Origin: Opitutus sp. GAS368 | GTDB lineage: Bacteria; Verrucomicrobiota; Verrucomicrobiia; Opitutales; Opitutaceae | Direction of reading: 5' to 3' | Assembly: GCA_945871085.1 (NCBI GenBank) | Contig: CAMBVX010000011.1 | Coordinates: forward strand, 1-42,475 | Length of the DNA stretch: 42,475 nt | Part shown: positions 19,513 to 28,963 of the stretch, in pieces | How the letters are laid out: every line of letters starts with the position of its first letter | Position numbering within the stretch: position 1 is the stretch's first letter | The notes under the pieces: model-generated | Database searches by the model: none | Told to the model about the DNA's origin: nothing | Seen by the model: the letters and a program-made list of their open reading frames with translations, nothing else | Translations under genes and position numbers: made by a program

Positions 19513-20457
19513 CTACCGCGTAGTACGGCGGAAAGACTCGGCGTGGTAGTCGAACCACGTCGTGCGATACATCGTCACGAGTTTATCATGCTCGTGGGCG
19601 AGACCTTCGACCTCGAGGTAGGTGTGGTCGAGGCCGGCGGCGAGGAGGGCGGCGTGGAAATCGCGGACGGTCGGAAGGTGACCCTCGTCGCGAGTGCCAC
19701 ACGTGACGGCGATGCGGAGGCCGGATTTGAGGGCGGCGGCGTTTTGCTTGATCAACGCGTAGACGTCGTTGGCGACGAAGTTGGCGCGATCGGAGCCGAG
19801 GTAGTCATTGGGGTAGGCGGTGGGCTTCGTCGGATCGTAGAGGTCGAGCAGGTGCATCACGTTTCCGGCTTGATTGTGGAGCGAGCAAAAGAGTTCGGGA
19901 TATTTGAGGGCGAGGCGAGTGGCACCACGACCGCCCATGGAAAAACCTTCGATAGCGCGACCATCACGGCGGGCGATTGTGCGGTAGAGGGTGTCGATGT
20001 GCGGCAGAAGTTCGCGGATGATCAGCGTTTCGGCGGGATATTTTCCGTCGGCAGAATCTTTGTAGAATGTGTTTTTCCCACCGTTGGGGAGAACCATCAT
20101 CATGGCGGGCCAGCGACCGGCGACGATGCCGTCGTGGAGTGCTTTCACGGCGGTGAAACTGTGGAGTTCATTGCCGCCGGCTCCGTGGAGATTGTAGATC
20201 ACCGGGTAGCGGCGGGTGGGCTCGGTTTCGTAGCCGGGAGGAAGATAGACGCAGTAGCCGACGTCGCGCGCGAACGCTTGGGAGAAAAACGTGTGATGAG
20301 TGACGCGGGTGGGGAGTTGTCCGGGTATTGGTGGATTGACCCAGACGGTCTTGGCGTTGAGGGCGGCGATATCCTTGGGCACGCCGTGGTCAGCGGCGGT
20401 GAGGAGCGGCGAGAGGCCCCCGAAAAAAAGGAGCACAAGCGAGAGCGGGGGATGCAT
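19513..20457 (-). CDS. Exported esterase of the alpha/beta-hydrolase superfamily (esterase D/CE1-like)
   Basis: A 314-residue exported enzyme with a signal peptide ending near residue 21 (A-A-D-H). The R-Y-P-V-I-Y-N-L-H-G-A-G-G oxyanion block, the nucleophile elbow G-F-S-M-G-G and a C-terminal region containing L-A-H-E-H-D, where the catalytic His is expected, fit the esterase D/feruloyl-acetyl esterase group. The likely role is removing acetyl or other acyl groups from the polysaccharide in the periplasm or outside the cell. It follows two sulfatases on the same strand with an 83-base gap. I use the ATG at 20457; the longer frame overlaps the upstream sulfatase gene and lacks a signal peptide at its start. 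Confidence 0.85.
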   Translation of the reverse strand: MHPPLSLVLLFFGGLSPLLTAADHGVPKDIAALNAKTVWVNPPIPGQLPTRVTHHTFFSQAFARDVGYCVYLPPGYETEPTRRYPVIYNLHGAGGNELHSFTAVKALHDGIVAGRWPAMMMVLPNGGKNTFYKDSADGKYPAETLIIRELLPHIDTLYRTIARRDGRAIEGFSMGGRGATRLALKYPELFCSLHNQAGNVMHLLDLYDPTKPTAYPNDYLGSDRANFVANDVYALIKQNAAALKSGLRIAVTCGTRDEGHLPTVRDFHAALLAAGLDHTYLEVEGLAHEHDKLVTMYRTTWFDYHAESFRRTTR

Positions 20458-20540
20458 GGGGGAAATCGTGCGGGGAAAGTGGCGGGTCAACCTGCACATG
20501 GCGCGCCAAGACGTCGATCGTGGGGAGCGGCTGAGGGCGA

Positions 20541-22058
20541 TCACGGGAAACTTTTCTGCGGACCGGCGAAGTCGGGGCGCACCCGGCCATCGAGGGCGAT
20601 GAGGGGCTGGGGGGCAGCGACGCGGCCGAGGGCACGGACGCCGGGACCGATGCCGTCACGGCCGAGGTCGGGGTGCGAGCCGTCGGCGATCGCGGTGAGG
20701 CGAGCGACGATCGCGGGATTCTCTGCGGCAACGTTGGAGGCCTCGCCGATATCGGAGCCGAGGTGGTAGAGTTCGTTTTTCGCGAGATGGAGTTTCCAGG
20801 GACCGGAGCGGACGGCCTCGAGGAGCAGGCCACGGTGATAAAGGAAGACGTCGCGGGGGGGAGTAGCGGGAGCACCGACGAGAATCGGCCAGAGGTCGAC
20901 GCCGTCGATCTTGCGGTCGGTGGCGAGGGGAGCGCGGGCGAGCTTTGCGAACGTGGGGAGCACATCCATCATCGTGGTGATCGCAGCGGTCGAGGAGGCG
21001 GCGGGGATTTTCCCGGGCCACCAAGCGAGCGCGGGGACGCGGATGCCGCCTTCGAGGGTCGAGCCCTTGCTGCCGCGGAGGGGGGTGTTGGTGGCGCCTT
21101 GCTGGGTGGGGCCGCCGTTGTCGGAGACGAAGAGGACAAGTGTGTTGCGATCGAGCTTTTGCTCGCGGAGCGCGTCGAGGATTTGGCCGACGCTCCAATC
21201 GACCTCTTGCACCCAGTCACCGAGCTGACCGTGGGGGGAAGAGCCGCGGAATTTCTCGGACGGATAGAGGGGAAAATGGACGGCGTTGTGAGCGAGGTAG
21301 ACGAAGAAGGGGCGGTCTTTCGCATGGGCGTCGCGGATGAACGAGACGGTTTTCTCAGTGTAGCGGCGAACGAGCGGAACCTGATCTTCGGCGCGAATGC
21401 GGCCGATGACGGTTTCATTTTCGATCAAAGCGAGCGGCGGCTGCACCCCGCCGCGAATGCCGATGCCATCGTCCTCGACCGGGGCGGCAGATTTTTTGGG
21501 TACCGGATTCGTCGCTTTAGACGCTTTGGCCGCATTGGGTTGTTTGCCGAAATTGCTTTTGGCGCCGTCGACGGCCGGGCCCATGTCGTTGGAGTAGGGC
21601 AGACCGAAATAGTAGTCGAAGCCCTGGCGGCGCGGAAGGAATTCGGGCTGATCGCCGAGGTGCCATTTGCCGATAGCGGCGGTCGCGTACCCGGCGGCGC
21701 GAAGGACGTCGGCGATCGTGTGTTCGTCGGGATGGAGGCCGATGGCGGCGTTGGGAAATAGGACGTGGGGGATGGGGAGGGCGCGCTTGGGATACGAGCC
21801 GGTCATCAGCGCGGCGCGCGACGGTGAACACACGGGCGCGGCGTAGTGACTCGTGAGCTTGCGGCCTTCGGCGGCCATGCGGTCGAGGGCCGGGGTGCGG
21901 TTGGTGGAACCAAAGGGGCCAATCTCTTGGTAGCCGAGATCGTCAATGTTGATGAGGACGAAATTGGGGCGGGTGGTGTTGGCAGCGGATGCGGCGGTCA
22001 CGACGAGCGGCAGGAAAACCGCGGAGAGCAGGGCGAAGGCGAGAGAGGATTTTTTCAT
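20541..22058 (-). CDS. Exported sulfatase (arylsulfatase A-like)
   Basis: A 505-residue sulfatase with a signal peptide ending near residue 26. Metal ligands D39-D40 (N-I-D-D-L-G), the formylglycine motif C77-S-P-S-R81 with L-M-T-G, the G-K131-W-H133-L-G block, the L-A-H-N-A-V-H block and V-S-D313-N314-G-G are intact. An insertion near residues 165-195 is rich in Lys and Ala. The type resembles arylsulfatase A and N-acetylgalactosamine-6-sulfatase relatives; which ester it cuts is not visible. It lies downstream of another sulfatase and just before the esterase, forming one minus-strand run. Confidence 0.93.
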   Translation of the reverse strand: MKKSSLAFALLSAVFLPLVVTAASAANTTRPNFVLINIDDLGYQEIGPFGSTNRTPALDRMAAEGRKLTSHYAAPVCSPSRAALMTGSYPKRALPIPHVLFPNAAIGLHPDEHTIADVLRAAGYATAAIGKWHLGDQPEFLPRRQGFDYYFGLPYSNDMGPAVDGAKSNFGKQPNAAKASKATNPVPKKSAAPVEDDGIGIRGGVQPPLALIENETVIGRIRAEDQVPLVRRYTEKTVSFIRDAHAKDRPFFVYLAHNAVHFPLYPSEKFRGSSPHGQLGDWVQEVDWSVGQILDALREQKLDRNTLVLFVSDNGGPTQQGATNTPLRGSKGSTLEGGIRVPALAWWPGKIPAASSTAAITTMMDVLPTFAKLARAPLATDRKIDGVDLWPILVGAPATPPRDVFLYHRGLLLEAVRSGPWKLHLAKNELYHLGSDIGEASNVAAENPAIVARLTAIADGSHPDLGRDGIGPGVRALGRVAAPQPLIALDGRVRPDFAGPQKSFP

Positions 22059-22256
22059 GGAGAGGAAATTAAAAGTCAGGAGAGGTGGAACCGCTCATCT
22101 CCCCTAATTTTCCGGAGGTGAAGGGTGCGTCTGAGGGGTGCGGGTCTCGCCGCATCGGCGAGGCGCGGGGCAAGTGCGGTGGCGCGGGAACTGTTTTTTG
22201 CTGAGCGAAGATTCGCGGTTCGCTGGTTCGGTTTGGTGAGGGTAGTTCGGGACGGT

Positions 22257-23741
22257 TCAGAGTTTAGTTTTTCCGTTTTTCCCGGCCTTGCCGGCTTTCG
22301 TGCCGGTGCCATCGCGGTCGAGGAGATCGGGGAGCGGGAGGTAATCAAAATCGACAATCATTTTTTCCGCGAGGGTGGTGCGGAGCTCGCGTTCGATCGT
22401 GTGCAGGGCGGCTTGGCCGCTGAGGTTGTTGAGTTCGGACGGATCGGCTTCGAGGTCGTAGAGTTCGTAGACTGGGCGCGGGGTGGTGAAGTAGGTGGTG
22501 CGGAGGCCGGCGGAGAGTTTGCCCTGCTCGTTGGCGGTGGTCATCTGCGTCCAGCCGGCACCTCCGGAGGAGTCGACCGGAGAATACGGCACCCACGGAG
22601 TGCAGTTGTAGATGAATTTGTAGCGGTCACTGCGGGCGCTGCGCGAAAAATCGTTGGCGGAGCTACGCATCTGGAGGGTGACGGGAGCGGTGCCGTGAGG
22701 TCCGCGTTCGCTGAACACGTGTTTACGGGGGACATAGGTTTTGCCTGTGAGGAGGGGGAGGAAGTTATGGCCGCTCATCTTCGGCCCGGGGGCGAGGCCG
22801 GCGGCGGCGAGGAGCGTGGGGGCGATGTCTTCACCACTGAGCAGCGCGCGGGAATCACCGCCGGGCTTGACGACGCCGGGCCAGCGGATGACGAGGGGGA
22901 CGTTGCAGCCGGGATCGTAGAGGGAGCCCTTGCCGTGAGGGAGCGCGGCGCCGTTATCGCCGGCGAAGACGACGATTGTGTTGCGGGCAAGTCCACGCTC
23001 GGCGAGCAAGTCGAGGACGGCCTTCATGCTGCGATCGACGCGGTTAACTTCGCCGCAGTAGTCGGCGAGTTGTTCGCGCAGGCCGGGTAAATCGGGCCAG
23101 TGGGGAGGAAGTTTGAGAGTGGCCGGATCGGGGCGGTCCGAGGCTGGGGGCGTCCACGGGTGATGCGGATCGCTGAAATTGAGCCAGAGGCAGAACGGTT
23201 TGTCGGCGGGTTTTTGAGCGAGAAATTCGCGCATCTGTTCGATGGCGACGGTGTCTGAGCCGGTGCGCAAGTAGTCCACCCGTTGCGCAAACGATTTCAG
23301 GCCGTGCTCGGCGAGGATGCGAGCACTGGTCGGGCCGTTGGCGGGGTTGGACCCATCGAGGTGGTAGGCGCGACCGCAGATCCCGGTGTAGTAACCGGCT
23401 TTTTCGCGGAGGATTTCGGGGAAGGTGATTTCGTCACGTGGGAGCGGCGAGGAGAACCGCGTCATGCGGGCGCCAACGGCGGAGCGGCCGGTGAGGTAAC
23501 CGGCGCGGGATGGCACGCACTGGGGCGCGACAGTGAACAGGCGGTGGAACTTCATGCCCTCGGCGGCGAGTTGATCGAGGGCGGGCGTGCGGACGTTGGG
23601 ATCGCCATAGCAGCTGAGAAACGGGTAGCTGTGGTCGTCCGACAGCACGAAGAGAATGTTGGGCTTCGACGACGTGGCCGCGGTGAGCAGGCCGGCGGTG
23701 AACGCGAAAAGCAGGGTGATGAGTGGGGCGGGGAGGCTCAT
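22257..23741 (-). CDS. Exported sulfatase (N-sulfoglucosamine sulfohydrolase-like)
   Basis: A 494-residue sulfatase with a signal peptide ending near residue 22. Metal ligands are D35-D36 (L-S-D-D-H-S), the formylglycine motif is C75-V-P-S-R79, and F-S-D-P-H-H-P-W (189-196) and F-A-G-D262-N263-G-A-A-L-P-H-G-K are present. In the segment that normally reads G-K-x-H it has G-R124-A-Y-H127, so Arg replaces the usual sulfate-binding Lys. The C-terminus is a lysine-rich tail (G-K-A-G-K-N-G-K-T-K-L). The ATG at 23741 is chosen for the signal peptide. It is the first gene of the minus-strand run with a second sulfatase and an esterase, 198 bases upstream of the former. Confidence 0.92.
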   Translation of the reverse strand: MSLPAPLITLLFAFTAGLLTAATSSKPNILFVLSDDHSYPFLSCYGDPNVRTPALDQLAAEGMKFHRLFTVAPQCVPSRAGYLTGRSAVGARMTRFSSPLPRDEITFPEILREKAGYYTGICGRAYHLDGSNPANGPTSARILAEHGLKSFAQRVDYLRTGSDTVAIEQMREFLAQKPADKPFCLWLNFSDPHHPWTPPASDRPDPATLKLPPHWPDLPGLREQLADYCGEVNRVDRSMKAVLDLLAERGLARNTIVVFAGDNGAALPHGKGSLYDPGCNVPLVIRWPGVVKPGGDSRALLSGEDIAPTLLAAAGLAPGPKMSGHNFLPLLTGKTYVPRKHVFSERGPHGTAPVTLQMRSSANDFSRSARSDRYKFIYNCTPWVPYSPVDSSGGAGWTQMTTANEQGKLSAGLRTTYFTTPRPVYELYDLEADPSELNNLSGQAALHTIERELRTTLAEKMIVDFDYLPLPDLLDRDGTGTKAGKAGKNGKTKL

Positions 23742-24247
23742 GGTGAGGGGGTGGTGAATTAACGTCGCCGGACGGCGCTGGGTGCAATCAATCTTCGGTG
23801 AGCGGTCACTTGTTTCAGTCGGTAGATTTTCCGCAAAACAACGGGACCACGGCTCAGCGCACTCCGGTCGATCGAGCCGTGCCAAAAAAACGGGCAAACA
23901 ACCTCCCTTTCAGGTGCGTAATTTGCTGGTCACGGGAAAACTGGCGGAGGAGAGGCGATTTCAACGCGAACTAAACTGGCGCTGGTAAGTGATTTTCAGA
24001 GGAGAATCCCGCGAGAATTGCCGCGGTTTTGCCGCCTCCGTTGCAATGCTCGGCGAAAGGACACGGGCGGTTCATGGTCTGGTTGAGGATGGACTCGCGC
24101 CATTTCGGCCACTCGCCTGAAAGTCGCTGAAAGACAGATTCGCGGGCGAGTGATTTGGCCTGCACGAACAACAGCCCCGGATGAACAGCCCGGGATGAAT
24201 GGACATAGCTTGGACCGTCGCTTCACCAATACGGCTTTTTGCCCGTT
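23742..24247. other. Intergenic stretch, start of an island-like segment
   Basis: About 500 bases with no convincing gene. The 66-codon minus-strand frame at 23971-24171 has no recognised product. The stretch contains an imperfect tandem 14-base repeat (24173-24186 and 24187-24200) and the left copy of a 23-base direct repeat. Confidence 0.4.
24202..24224 (+). repeat. Left copy of a 23-base direct repeat flanking the Fic gene
   Basis: GACATAGCTTGG followed by ACCGTCGCTTC at 24202-24224 matches 25507-25529 at 20 of 23 positions in the same orientation. The two copies bracket the Fic gene and its operator array, about 1.3 kb apart. They could be attachment-like or duplication remnants of an insertion. 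Confidence 0.6.
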
Positions 24248-24346
24248 GCGGAGAATAGTGCCCTTATTCTCCGCATGAAAAGCGGAGATTATCCCTTGCT
24301 GCGCGAAGAATGCCGGACAAGTTCACCGCATAAACTGCGGAGATTA
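24248..24346. promoter_or_regulatory. Operator array of GCGGAGAwTA half-sites upstream of the Fic gene
   Basis: Forward copies lie at 24248-24257 (GCGGAGAATA), 24282-24291 and 24337-24346 (GCGGAGATTA). Reverse copies lie at 24265-24274 (perfect, TATTCTCCGC) and, degenerate, at about 24320-24329. Neighbouring copies are 17 bases apart in three of four steps, so they form overlapping inverted pairs. The last forward copy ends one base before the Fic start codon and includes its GGAG Shine-Dalgarno site. Binding of the wHTH of the Fic protein itself is the natural guess. Confidence 0.75.
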
Positions 24347-24347
24347 A

Positions 24348-25442
24348 ATGTATATCCACGAACGAAAGGACTGGCCGGACTTCACTTGGGACCACGCCGC
24401 CATCACTCCGCTGTTGAGTGACGTGAGGCATACGCAGGGGCGCTTGCTTGGGAAGATGGAAGGTTTGGGCTTCCATCTGCGCGAGGAGGCGACCTTGGCC
24501 ACGCTCACGCAGGACGTGATCAAGACGAGCGAGATTGAAGGGCAGACGCTGGATATCCAGCAGGTCCGTTACTCGATCGCGCGGCGCATGGGCATCGAGA
24601 TCGCGGCCCTTCCGCAGATGGATCGCAGCGTCGAGGGTATCGTTGAAGTGATGCTGGACGCCACTCGCCACCATCAGAAGCTGCTCGATCAGGATCGGCT
24701 GTTCGGCTGGCATGCGGCACTGTTCCCGACCGGGCGCAGCGGCATGCGGAAAATTATCGTGGGCGGCTGGCGCACCGATACATCAGGGCCAATGCAGGTT
24801 GTTTCCGGTGCCTTCGGACGGGAAAAGGTTCATTACGAGGCCCCGCCTCATGACAGGCTCAACGCAGAAATGACCCGGTTTTTGGCGTGGCTGAACGCCG
24901 GCCCTGCAACCGATCCGGTCCTGACCTCTGCGCTCGCACATTTCTGGTTCGTGACGATCCATCCATTCGACGACGGCAACGGCCGCATCGCCCGCGCCAT
25001 CGCCGACATGATCCTCGCGCGCTCTGAAAACAGCGCGCAGCGTTTCTACAGCATGTCCGCGCAAATCCAGCGTGAACGAAACGCCTATTACGACATTCTC
25101 GAGGCCAGTCAGCGTGGCGACCTGAATATCACCGCTTGGCTTGAATGGTATTTTGCCTGCCTCAGGCATGCGATAAATTCATCCCATGAAATTCTCGACG
25201 CCGTTTTGACGAAGGCAAATTTCTGGAAGCTCCACGAGGGGGAGACGTTCAGCGACCGTCAGCGCAATCTGATCAACCGGCTTTTGGACGGTTTCGACGG
25301 CAAGCTGACTTCCTCAAAATGGGCGAATATCGCCAAATGCTCCCCGGATACCGCGCTGCGCGACATCACCGACTTGATGGAGCGGAACATTCTGGCCAAG
25401 GATGACGCTGGCGGACGCAGCACCAGCTATCGCCTGAAATAA
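24348..25442 (+). CDS. Fic family protein with DUF4172 N-terminus and C-terminal wHTH (SoFic-like)
   Basis: A 364-residue cytoplasmic protein. The Fic motif H205-P-F-D-D-G-N-G-R213 is complete, so nucleotide transfer (AMPylation) to a protein hydroxyl is expected. The N-terminal inhibitory helix T60-S-E-I-E64-G65 fits the class II Fic type, which is self-inhibited and needs no separate antitoxin. The C-terminal 65 residues look like a winged helix-turn-helix (D-R-Q-R-N-L-I-N-R-L-L-D-G then S-K-W-A-N-I-A-K-C-S-P-D-T-A-L-R-D-I). The overall architecture is that of Shewanella SoFic. It is the only start in the cluster with a clear GGAG site, and a repeat array sits directly upstream. It has no visible tie to polysaccharide use and appears inserted. 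Confidence 0.93.
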   Translation: MYIHERKDWPDFTWDHAAITPLLSDVRHTQGRLLGKMEGLGFHLREEATLATLTQDVIKTSEIEGQTLDIQQVRYSIARRMGIEIAALPQMDRSVEGIVEVMLDATRHHQKLLDQDRLFGWHAALFPTGRSGMRKIIVGGWRTDTSGPMQVVSGAFGREKVHYEAPPHDRLNAEMTRFLAWLNAGPATDPVLTSALAHFWFVTIHPFDDGNGRIARAIADMILARSENSAQRFYSMSAQIQRERNAYYDILEASQRGDLNITAWLEWYFACLRHAINSSHEILDAVLTKANFWKLHEGETFSDRQRNLINRLLDGFDGKLTSSKWANIAKCSPDTALRDITDLMERNILAKDDAGGRSTSYRLK

Positions 25443-25506
25443 AACCGCAGCCCAATCAATGATCGGCGTTCTTGCGCACGGGTGTGCTACACCGCTGGAT
25501 CGACGT

Positions 25507-25939: not shown

Positions 25940-26062
25940 GATATAAACTGCTAGCATTCTTCTGTCGCGAATCGCACCCGTCCGATCCATTGTTTCACGC
26001 ATCGCGTCGGGCAGAACGGTCTATCGAACCAACCCAATCCACCCTCCCCAGTGAAACCTGTG

Positions 26063-28963
26063 ATGAAATCTGTGATTCTCCCGTTGTCTGCTTTGGCCGT
26101 GTTGGCCAGTCCGAGCTTTGGGCAGCGGGCCCTCCCGCCGGCACCTGCGACCGACGCCCCCGTCGAACTCTCGCCCTTCCTCGTCGATGCCAGCAAGGAC
26201 GTCGGCTACCAAGGCGGTAACACGACCTCCGGCAGCCGACTCAACACCAGCCTGAAGGACACCGCGGCCACCGTGCAGGTGTTCACGCCGGAGTTTCTCC
26301 AAGACCTCGGCGCCAACAGTCTCGCCGAGGTCCTGGCATACGGGACCTCGGTCCAGCCCGACCTCACCGACACCTCGCCCGATTTCGGTGGCTCCCCGAA
26401 TGGCCGCCCTGATTCCGGGCGGCAGGACTTCGTCTTCAAGTCCCGCGGCCTCGACACCTCCCGCATGGTGGATTTCTTCAACACCAACATTCCGATCGAC
26501 ACGTACAACACCGGCCGACTCGAGCAATCCAGCGGGCCCAACGCCGTGCTCTTTGGCATCGGCGCGGCCGGCGGCTCCATCAATGCCAGCACCAAGCGCG
26601 CGTTGGCCGAGCGCAACATCTACACTCTCCGCAGTCAGGTAGGATCCTGGGACACTTGGCGGCTCGAAACCGACGTCAACCAGGTCCTCCGACCGAATGT
26701 GCTCGCCCTGCGCGTGATGGGAGTGACCGAGAGCGCGGAGACCTGGCGCACCTGGGAGTACTCAAAACAAAAGCGCCTCACCGCCGCGGTCACGGTGCGC
26801 CCCTGGACACAGACGGGCATCCACCTCGGCTACGAGACCGGCCGTGCGGATCGCAGCATCTCCCAGCAATGGAATGCCGAGGATCAACTGAAACTCTGGC
26901 TCACCAGCGGCCGCCCACTGCGGAGCGGCCTTTGGACGGCTGCCAACCTGGCGACCGACCAGCCGCTCGGCGTCACCACGATGGGTACCGGAAGCCTGAA
27001 TACATTCATCGAGAGCGACGGCTCGTACGCCAACTTCCGCAACCTGCGGCAGAGCACCTACGCCAATCTCAGCCTGCCCGCCACCCAGCGTCCGACCGAC
27101 GCCACGCTTCTGCCCACCTCGCTCATGCCCTACCGCGTGAGCTGGATGGGGCCCGGCGCCTTTTTCCGGACTGATTTCAATGCCCGCAGCCTTACGGTCA
27201 CCCAGCAGGTGGCCCGGGGGGTCAATCTCGAGGCGGCCTATCGCCGGGAGCACACCGCCATCGACCTCCGCCGCGCCTTCGTCGGGGTGCTGCGCGGCGA
27301 TCCCAACAGCCAGACCGTCAACGCGGCCGGTGCACTCGTCGCGAACCCCAACGCCGGCCGCCTCTACCTCGAGGACAATTGGGGCCGCGCCGAAACCACC
27401 TACGACACCGAATCGATGCGCCTCAGCCTCAACTACGAGGCCCAACTGGGAAGATGGGGGCGCCATCTGCTCGGCGCGATGTGGCAGCGGTATCAGCAGG
27501 ATACCTATACGATGGATTTTTTTGAAATCCTCGTCGATGCCAGCAACCGCCCCATCGGCACGGCGACCAATCCCGCCGGGACGGACAGCCGGCTCTACCG
27601 CCGACGCTACGTCACCGAAGGCGACTATCGGAGCTATTACAACGGCGACGCGAGGATCCCTTTCAACGCCACCATCAACGGCGTGGCCTATCACTCCGCC
27701 TACGTGCACGGAAACACCAACCAGATGACCCTGGGCACGGAGAAGACCGACACGATGATGGCCACGCTGCAAAGTTCCTTCTTCCGTGATCGCGTGGTCA
27801 CGACCTTCGGCTGGCGGCGGGATCAAGCCAGCACCCGCCGCAACGGGATCGGGGTGCTGGCCGCAACGGATCCGCGCGTCACCCGTGGGGAGCGCCTTGC
27901 TTTCGAGCAGGATTTCACGAACGACGTCTCCGTGTACGACAAGAACAAGCCGCCGACCTACTCGGCGGGAGTGGTCTGGCACGCGTTGCCCTGGCTTTCG
28001 GCTTCGTACAATCGTTCCACTAGCGTCAGCACGCCGGGCCTGCGCGAGACCATCTTTCCCGATGGCGAGCTGCGCCCACCATCCTCCGGATCGGGGGAGG
28101 ATTACGCGCTGATGTTCAGCCTCCTCGACGGGAAGACCTTCTTGCGCATCAACCGCTACCGGACCGAGGATGTCCGAGGCTCCGGCGCCAATATTCAAAA
28201 TCTCGTGGTGGCGCCACGGAATCGAATCAACAACGCGCTGCTGCTCGCCACTGTAATCACCCAGGCCGAGTACGATGCCCGCAACATCAACGCCCGGGCG
28301 GCGCTGGCCGACAAGGTGTCAACCGGCTGGGAGGCGAATCTCACCACCAACCTGACCAAGGGCTGGGCGCTCCAGGGCAGTTACTCCTACACCGACTACA
28401 AGGTCACAAACTGGTTTGATGAGTTCGCGCCCTGGTTTGAGGAGACTCAGGTGTTTTGGAAGGCGAGGCTCGCCGCCACCGGCAAGACCACGGCCGACGT
28501 GCGCACCGCCACCGCCGCTGCACTCGGCACGGTCCAGGACGAGATCAACGGCATGCTGACGGCCGTGCAGGAACAGCGCGAAATCTTCGAGCTGAACTAT
28601 GGCATGCGTCCACACAAGGCCAGCGTCTTCACCCGGTATTCGTTTTCCGAAGGCAGGCTGAAGGGCGCCTTTGTTGGCGGCGGTCTGCGCTACCAAAGCA
28701 AAAACGTTCTCCAAAAAAACTTTTCAACCGGTGCGATCTTGGAGGGAGGGGAAGTGTTCGCCACTGACGCCCTCATTGGCTACACGACCGGGGTGTCCGT
28801 CGGTTCCCGCCGGATCCAGTGCCGATTTCAACTCAACGTGCGCAACGTGCTCGACGAGACGAAGCCGATCGTCGGACGCTACAACTCGGACTTTTCCGGT
28901 GTCCGGCGCGTCATCCTGCTGGAACCGCGCTCCTTCCGATTCACGACCACCTTTGAGTTCTGA
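26063..28963 (+). CDS. TonB-dependent outer-membrane receptor 3
   Basis: A 966-residue receptor. A signal peptide ends after F-G-Q near residue 21, and P-V-E-L-S-P-F-L-V-D-A comes next. The plug domain carries S-G-S-R-L-N-T, V-Q-V-F-T-P-E-F-L and Y-N-T-G-R-L-E-Q-S-S-G-P-N-A-V-L-F-G-I-G; the barrel ends in E-F. It is the first gene of a plus-strand block with a beta-helix enzyme, an acetylesterase and a sulfatase, so it probably imports the sugar they release. I chose the ATG at 26063; a GTG at 26051 adds four residues without changing the signal peptide. Its closest relative in the window by N-terminal block is receptor 2. Confidence 0.93.
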   Translation: MKSVILPLSALAVLASPSFGQRALPPAPATDAPVELSPFLVDASKDVGYQGGNTTSGSRLNTSLKDTAATVQVFTPEFLQDLGANSLAEVLAYGTSVQPDLTDTSPDFGGSPNGRPDSGRQDFVFKSRGLDTSRMVDFFNTNIPIDTYNTGRLEQSSGPNAVLFGIGAAGGSINASTKRALAERNIYTLRSQVGSWDTWRLETDVNQVLRPNVLALRVMGVTESAETWRTWEYSKQKRLTAAVTVRPWTQTGIHLGYETGRADRSISQQWNAEDQLKLWLTSGRPLRSGLWTAANLATDQPLGVTTMGTGSLNTFIESDGSYANFRNLRQSTYANLSLPATQRPTDATLLPTSLMPYRVSWMGPGAFFRTDFNARSLTVTQQVARGVNLEAAYRREHTAIDLRRAFVGVLRGDPNSQTVNAAGALVANPNAGRLYLEDNWGRAETTYDTESMRLSLNYEAQLGRWGRHLLGAMWQRYQQDTYTMDFFEILVDASNRPIGTATNPAGTDSRLYRRRYVTEGDYRSYYNGDARIPFNATINGVAYHSAYVHGNTNQMTLGTEKTDTMMATLQSSFFRDRVVTTFGWRRDQASTRRNGIGVLAATDPRVTRGERLAFEQDFTNDVSVYDKNKPPTYSAGVVWHALPWLSASYNRSTSVSTPGLRETIFPDGELRPPSSGSGEDYALMFSLLDGKTFLRINRYRTEDVRGSGANIQNLVVAPRNRINNALLLATVITQAEYDARNINARAALADKVSTGWEANLTTNLTKGWALQGSYSYTDYKVTNWFDEFAPWFEETQVFWKARLAATGKTTADVRTATAAALGTVQDEINGMLTAVQEQREIFELNYGMRPHKASVFTRYSFSEGRLKGAFVGGGLRYQSKNVLQKNFSTGAILEGGEVFATDALIGYTTGVSVGSRRIQCRFQLNVRNVLDETKPIVGRYNSDFSGVRRVILLEPRSFRFTTTFEF

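Follow-up and report, generated by a model that had tools for sequence, protein, structure and literature searches.

Which protein reads a row of inverted DNA repeats that stands directly in front of a Fic gene, and what does the row do there? This question is raised by a 42,475-nucleotide stretch of Opitutus sp. GAS368 (assembly GCA_945871085.1, contig CAMBVX010000011.1; the whole stretch is referred to here as the window), in which an array of half-sites precedes a gene of the DUF4172-Fic-winged helix-turn-helix (wHTH) family. Fic enzymes of this family tag other proteins with adenosine monophosphate (AMP). The array is very likely the operator of its own Fic gene, read by the C-terminal winged helix of the Fic protein, which would thereby repress itself. 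Such autoregulation at the array, proposed in a first-pass annotation of the window, is strongly supported by comparison, because the array is found across phyla and changes in its half-sites track the recognition helix of the protein.

A six-site array around the promoter

The array of the window is composed of six half-sites of the 11-mer TGCGGNGAWTA, two of them degenerate, which are arranged as two triplets with the orientations +,-,+ and +,-,+ (Table 1). The first-pass annotation had described a single alternating row of five copies of the shorter word GCGGAGAWTA at 17-base spacing. Four of these copies are exact (24248, 24282 and 24337 on the plus strand, 24265 on the minus strand) and are the only exact ones in the window, and the copy at about 24320 is real, lying on the minus strand with two mismatches; the site at 24302-24312 had been missed, and the single row is replaced by the two triplets. 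The 17-base spacing is borne out, as the starts of the 11-mers lie 18 bp apart when the pair converges and 16 bp apart when it diverges (with gaps of 7 and 5 bp, respectively), which yields an equal step of 17 bases when the 10-mer is used. The last site had been placed over the ribosome-binding site, ending one base before the start codon, and this is indeed the case: a GGAG within it would suit a ribosome-binding site, and its last base is 24346, with the ATG at 24348. No adjacent pair with the geometry of the array occurs elsewhere in the window at up to two mismatches.

Table 1. Features of the array, the Fic gene and the surrounding block, in window coordinates.
Feature	Position	Strand	Remarks
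Half-site 1, TGCGGAGAATA	24247..24257	+	0 mismatches to TGCGGNGAWTA; slot kept in relatives
Half-site 2, TGCGGAGAATA on minus strand	24265..24275	-	0 mismatches
Half-site 3, AGCGGAGATTA	24281..24291	+	1 mismatch
-35-like TTGCTG between the triplets	24296..24301	+	TTG in the same slot in 39/47 well-formed relative arrays
Half-site 4, CGCGAAGAATG, degenerate	24302..24312	+	3 mismatches; slot matches at >=9/11 in 58/66 relatives
-10 slot, poor CAAGTT	24318..24323	+	Placed by comparison; relatives often TATAAT/CATAAT-like
Half-site 5, TGCGGTGAACT on minus strand, degenerate	24320..24330	-	2 mismatches
Half-site 6, TGCGGAGATTA, over likely Shine-Dalgarno	24336..24346	+	0 mismatches; ends 1 nt before ATG
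DUF4172-Fic-wHTH protein, 364 aa, class II	24348..25442	+	TSEIEG at residues 60-65; core HPFDDGNGRIAR; best solved match 8cil
C-terminal wHTH, residues 303-364	25254..25439	+	AlphaFold2 model; recognition helix 333-345, P333 and D334 at its start
Shared block (~315 nt upstream, array, gene, 10 nt past stop)	23932..25452	+	Matches in other copies

The gene product agrees with its earlier description as a class II Fic enzyme with a C-terminal winged helix. Pfam recognises DUF4172 at the N-terminus (PF13776, E 1.8e-32, residues 2-83) and a Fic domain (PF02661, E 5.7e-16) in which the core HPFx(D/E)GNGRxxR is present as HPFDDGNGRIAR. The class II inhibitory motif (S/T)xxxE(G/N) is found ahead of the Fic core as T60-S-E-I-E64-G65, of which I63, E64 and G65 are invariant across 17 aligned members. 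The wHTH region has only a sub-threshold Pfam match and appears in an AlphaFold2 model built from 17 aligned sequences (mean predicted local distance difference test score, pLDDT, 86.1; predicted template modelling score, pTM, 0.83), with helices at 303-313, 322-329 and 333-345 and strands at 349-351 and 361-363. The closest solved structure is 8cil (CbFic2), matched with E 3.1e-91 over residues 2-363 and the top Foldseek hit, at 39-40% identity.

The array is a genuine feature whose conservation extends far outside the window, to several phyla. DUF4172-Fic genes occur on chromosomes and plasmids of several phyla, and the relatives compared (the best 80 of at least 565 candidates, 61-95% identical over the best segment) come from Verrucomicrobiota, Pseudomonadota, Bacteroidota, Planctomycetota and others. 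Together with the window copy and a copy of the own genome (L034, 53% identical to the window protein), the 79 relatives with at least 150 nt upstream gave 81 upstreams (L103 starts inside the gene); many of these are related, and 66 are left once similar ones are removed. Counting TGCGGNGAWTA with up to two mismatches per 166 nt gives a mean of 5.26 half-sites per upstream, with at least four in 74 of the 81 and at least five in 66, the poorest being L097 with one and L145 with two. The corresponding mean in dinucleotide shuffles (n=4050) is 0.41, with four or more half-sites in 2 of the 4050, and a stretch of the same length inside the genes holds none in 59 cases, one in 21 and two in 1. 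The geometry is equally distinctive: among 524 opposite-strand pairs in the 81 upstreams, the commonest spacings are the convergent one of 18 bp (116 pairs) and the divergent one of 16 bp (120 pairs), neither of which occurs among the 155 opposite-strand pairs of the shuffles. Conservation of the half-site upstream of related Fic genes, on which the first-pass annotation had staked its proposal, is thus what is found, with at least three half-sites in 79 of the 81 upstreams.

Fitting a six-site register to the 66 non-redundant upstreams gave 47 well-formed arrays (at least five sites matching at 9 or more of 11 positions), 23 of them with all six sites. A TTG between sites 3 and 4 is present in 39 of the 47 and lies 16-18 bp before a -10 in 36 of these 39; the -10 of the relatives, often TATAAT, CATAAT or CATATT, shares bases with site 5 at its outer end. 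A sigma70-like promoter is bracketed by the sites in most relatives, and inverted half-sites overlap the putative -35 and -10 of the gene's own promoter as in the CccR system discussed below, the window -10 being poor. The two convergent pairs start 54-56 bp apart in 43 of 47 well-formed type-A arrays. Two pairs are also present in 33 of 48 other loci (the non-Asp334 loci L188, L262, L178 and L268 left out), 25 of them at 43-45 bp, 7 at 33-35 bp and 1 at 49 bp. The resulting distance classes of about 34, 44 and 55 bp (e.g., L187, L195, L198 and L264 compared with types A and C) lie about one helical turn apart, which fits, without proving it, cooperative binding on one face of the DNA.

Inverted repeats could also act as RNA, with sites 5 and 6 forming a hairpin that hides the ribosome-binding site and sites 1-3 forming a leader hairpin, an explanation to which we give hardly any credence. 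The 121-nt stretch folds better than its shuffles (z -2.75, 2 of 200 as good), as expected of a palindrome array, whereas the short leader alone does not (z -0.52), and Rfam returns no match at the gathering threshold. Partners of divergent pairs agree at the free base 6 in 50 of 98 cases (36.4 expected) and at base 9 in 64 of 98 (49.1 expected). This mild coupling may reflect shared ancestry or a real preference and is far from a kept stem. Only 58 of the 98 pairs could pair at base 6 even with G-U, and convergent pairs stay close to expectation at base 6 (32 of 96, 29.7 expected) and fall short of it at base 9 (34 of 96, 47.5 expected). Moreover, because the -10 overlaps site 5 in relatives, the message should start at or after site 5 and would not include the two hairpin arms together. 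On these grounds the hairpin was rejected as the function of the array.

Co-variation of the half-sites with the recognition helix

The reader of the operator is, very probably, the wHTH of the Fic protein itself, as suggested by the way in which half-sites and recognition helix change together. Half-sites were extracted blind to the protein for 184 distinct complete proteins, requiring a TG-initial word and favouring pairs 17-19 bp apart, and compared with residues 333 and 334 (numbered after P333 and D334, their counterparts in the window protein). Proteins with Asp334 (132) have TGC-type sites, mostly TGCGGNGAWTA, and more distant DUF4172-fic genes carry other repeats with the same convergent-pair geometry. 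Those with K333 and A or P at 334 (18) have mostly TGAGCCGAWTA or close variants, with departures in L187, L189 and L263 and with L268 missed by the blind search; R333-A334 (17) goes with TGAGNNATA in 15 proteins, the exceptions being L195 and L271; S, T or P333 with A334 (6) goes with TGAT in 5, L270 being ambiguous at base 4; and both L333-P334 proteins have TGAGGCGAAT.

Removal of redundancy at 80% left 139 rows, of which L188, L262 and L097, being without array, were omitted from the Asp334/C3 count. In the remaining 136, all 88 rows with Asp334 have C at base 3, and all 48 with another residue have another base there; the 48 include L178 and L268, for which the blind search returned words that are no true arrays (by eye, L268 has TGARTCGATTA-type sites). 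When these two were also left out (134 of the 139 rows), residue 334 was the best predictor of base 3 among 364 columns, with a normalised mutual information (nMI) of 0.76, followed by F233 with 0.50. For base 5 in non-Asp rows, residue 333 is the best column (nMI 0.28), which is a weak clue.

These rules were fixed before new loci were fetched from viral contigs. Once proteins at least 90% identical to the training set or to each other had been dropped, 60 loci were left, of which 50 were counted as DUF4172 members; the uncounted ones (L404-L407, L410, L411, L413, L418, L419 and L447) belong to other Fic families, at most 30.3% identical to the training set. Asp334 predicted C3 in 38 of 39 cases, the miss being L345, in which a TGCGGCTTATT palindrome seen by eye had been passed over by the blind search. 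Non-Asp residues predicted A3 in 11 of 11, among them L353, which has no convincing array. S333-A334 predicted T4 in 2 of 2. For K333-A334 (n=4), base 7 is G in all four and both letters are CG in two (L349 and L354), and R333 predicted A7 in 2 of 4, the misses L347 and L348 resembling the training exception L195. As a general rule, that R333 means A7 was rejected, since it fails with the helix TA[FY]REI (L195, L347 and L348), whose members share TGAAGCGATTA-type sites. Also rejected was D339A as the cause of the odd GAAAA half-site in L058, because the site of L246, a protein that also carries D339A, is normal.

A further line of evidence comes from six genomes (G213, G392, G535, G438, G612 and G787) that hold two genes of different helix type: in all six the sites differ, each matching the class of its own helix, although for A333-S334 (L196), a class with two members, no rule was stated beforehand. 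Such matching would hardly be expected of one host repressor common to both genes. This bears on an explanation that we consider very unlikely, namely that the operator is read by another repressor of the host or of a mobile element and that the Fic gene is merely its target. The case for the Fic wHTH as reader is comparative, some plasmid copies adjoin other HTH genes, and four orphan clusters lie away from any DUF4172-fic gene. However, the half-site bases follow the Fic helix in the family at large, in the out-of-sample loci and in paralogues of a single genome. The 18 plasmid regions compared, from four phyla, have differing annotated neighbours, with no neighbour present in every region, which argues against a linked repressor that travels with the gene.

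The distribution of the palindrome over genomes also points to the Fic gene. Exact matches to the strict pattern TAWTCNCCGCAN5TGCGGNGAWTA are present in 14 of 387 genomes of the phylum, once in each (reversed pattern, 0), and 10 of the 14 adjoin a DUF4172-fic gene; by comparison, DUF4172 itself has hits in 53 of 286 genomes from the class. In 40 relative genomes picked for holding the gene, the palindrome at up to one mismatch is present in 25, at 33 places, all of them at a DUF4172-fic gene (reversed control, 0): 25 beside fic genes, 7 second copies 54-56 bp off in the same arrays and 1 before a fic gene on another contig of G564. In the own genome (G000), the word GCGGAGAWTA has 48 exact copies, compared with 1 for the reversed word; 8 of these lie in two fic arrays and the rest are possibly an effect of codon usage. 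The paired word CTCCGC-N7-GCGGAGA, at zero mismatches, occurs there at the two near-identical fic copies and on contigs C49 and C83, and a third copy of the genome (C453) differs by a letter and escapes this search. A wider regulon was rejected, as the paired word occurs at few places of the own genome and none of the 33 palindromes in the 40 genomes lies off a fic gene.

Several observations weigh against self-control through the array. The palindromes of the orphan clusters (L158, L160, L161 and L162) make up 4 of the 14 exact ones and have no DUF4172-fic gene nearby, wider stretches (L281-L284) included, and 15 of the 40 gene-holding genomes are without palindrome at up to one mismatch. The array is absent or poor in L097 (of the Asp334 type), L145, L188 and L262, and the window copy itself has a decayed -10 slot and decayed sites 4 and 5, with TTGCTG retained. 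Within the half-site, bases 4, 7 and 8 are best predicted mostly by columns outside the helix (G35, L23, G356 and W141), which behave like clade markers. In a tree from which the wHTH columns had been excluded, the Asp334/C3 pair switched only three times, giving two independent pairs on supported branches, which agree; the sign test (p 0.5) is without power because of these small numbers. The tree-aware test of residue 333 and base 4 gives about 2 pairs for, 0.4 against and 1.7 with no difference. The K/R rule for bases 6-7 fails in L189 and L195 of the training set and in L347 and L348 out of sample, and the two letters predicted for K were both present in only 2 of 4 cases there. As for the orphan clusters, two genomes (G499 and G439) have no DUF4172 hit and the other two (G438 and G454) have only fic genes of non-Asp334 type, so that these clusters could be additional targets or remnants left behind by genes since lost. 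Each of them has three half-sites; by eye, two adjoin open reading frames (ORFs) resembling small RelE/HigB-type toxins and two are near transposase-like ORFs.

The mobile block and its surroundings

Gene and array are shared between copies as a block (Table 1), common to L031, L078, L093, L079 and L080, among others. In nine records compared, the left end falls at 23932-23939 in five and the right end at 25452 in five; the match begins later in L077 and L081 and stops slightly earlier in L080 and L082, L031 is cut by the contig end and L103 continues to 25765. A second copy of the same genome (C239) is 96% identical and cut at 282 aa by the contig end, and its remaining surroundings are unlike those of the window. 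In L101, about 90 nt separate the end of a tRNA-Arg (CCG) gene (2335-2411) from the fic start codon; the array begins where the tRNA gene stops, which gives the impression of a block inserted at the 3' end of the tRNA gene. In the window, the block is flanked by sulfatase-like genes on the minus strand (19513-23897) and by a TonB-dependent receptor-like gene (26051-28963), both assigned by eye; these flanks look like a polysaccharide-use locus. Elsewhere in the own genome (C176), a Fic gene of another family (L035) is preceded, by eye, by a row of GACTCA repeats, and operator rows may thus exist in other Fic families.

That gene and array move as a block, that one copy lies directly behind a tRNA-Arg gene and that two orphan clusters are near transposase-like ORFs would suit an array that is not a repressor operator and serves instead as an activator site or as a recombination site (an attachment site or transposon end), which is also quite improbable. 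In the window, both ends of the block lie away from the array, one some 315 nt before it and the other past the stop codon, and the link to the recognition helix indicates a DNA-reading Fic protein and not a recombinase. Furthermore, most well-formed arrays have site 5 on the -10 and site 6 immediately ahead of the start codon, positions that suit repression.

Relation to known systems and proposed mechanism

Toxin operons such as AbiE and Phd-Doc repress themselves at inverted repeats to which a separate antitoxin binds, whereas in the window protein the enzyme and the probable DNA reader are one polypeptide. The nearest functional parallel is CccR of Yersinia pseudotuberculosis, which combines a Fic domain with a C-terminal HTH and represses its own promoter via this HTH (PMC9755527). 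Its DNase I footprint of 46 nt covers two inverted 10-bp boxes near the -35 and -10, AGATAATCAT-N26-ATGATAATCT, mutation of which abolishes binding and repression, and repression requires the dimer (PMC9755527). Both systems have a class II Fic enzyme and inverted repeats at the enzyme's own promoter, which the C-terminus of CccR reads and that of the window protein very probably reads. However, CccR uses two half-sites separated by N26, a geometry absent from the DUF4172 arrays, which have four to six half-sites of other sequences with 7- and 5-bp gaps, and being a type VI secretion system effector is a feature of CccR. The array would thus belong to the self-repressing Fic-HTH kind already known from CccR, with a different sequence and geometry.

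The closest relative in sequence and structure is CbFic2 of Coxiella burnetii (8cil), which has the same three domains, DUF4172-Fic-wHTH, and the TSxIEG inhibitory motif. DNA of at least 20 bp dimerises this enzyme, stimulates its deAMPylation and stops its self-AMPylation; random DNA was used, and the authors flag a specific binding sequence as future work of special interest (PMC10628234). The portion of that article considered here names no operator for CbFic2. The anti-phage protein SoFic has a similar fold (Foldseek hits 3zec, 3zcn and 3eqx), and the PADLOC SoFic model matches residues 11-361 of the window protein with 141 bits. However, the NCBIfam SoFic equivalog NF046030 gives 45.5 bits, far below its cut-off of 550, solved SoFic chains align by phmmer to residues 174-265 only, and the portion of PMC12249575 considered mentions no operator of SoFic's own. 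Among the matches listed in the open-access literature for DUF4172, Fic autoregulation and the half-site words, no description of the array was found, which does not imply its absence from print.

In the proposed mechanism, protomers would sit on a fixed lattice of half-sites around the promoter, in which the first three sites precede the -35, site 4 falls within the spacer, and sites 5 and 6 cover the -10 and the ribosome-binding site, respectively. Once occupied, the sites would block RNA polymerase and ribosomes, and by keeping both away the enzyme would repress its own synthesis. Binding of the protein to the array is what the comparison predicts; that binding represses is argued by the position of the sites over the -10 and the ribosome-binding site and by the CccR case, and CbFic2 and CccR together suggest that dimers bind through DUF4172. 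The array may also couple Fic dosage to AMPylation, as the first-pass annotation had supposed, a suggestion that leans on the published behaviour of CbFic2 (PMC10628234). Joining the autorepression of CccR to the DNA switch of CbFic2 leads to a bolder reading, which we regard as conceivable though rather unlikely, in which occupancy of the operator sets the state of the enzyme. The promoter array would then also be a specific allosteric DNA ligand, with bound dimers silent or deAMPylating and only the excess over the four to six half-sites free to AMPylate. The gene's promoter would be an antitoxin in the form of DNA, defining a copy-number threshold for the toxin, and the family would have given rise to many orthogonal enzyme-operator pairs by way of a two-residue code.

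In all, the comparison supplies a predicted sequence, a geometry and probable reading residues for the DNA partner of DUF4172-Fic enzymes, and thereby addresses the question of which DNA regulates such enzymes and whether DNA gates their activity. The code formed by residues 333 and 334 may in addition yield orthogonal repressor-operator pairs.
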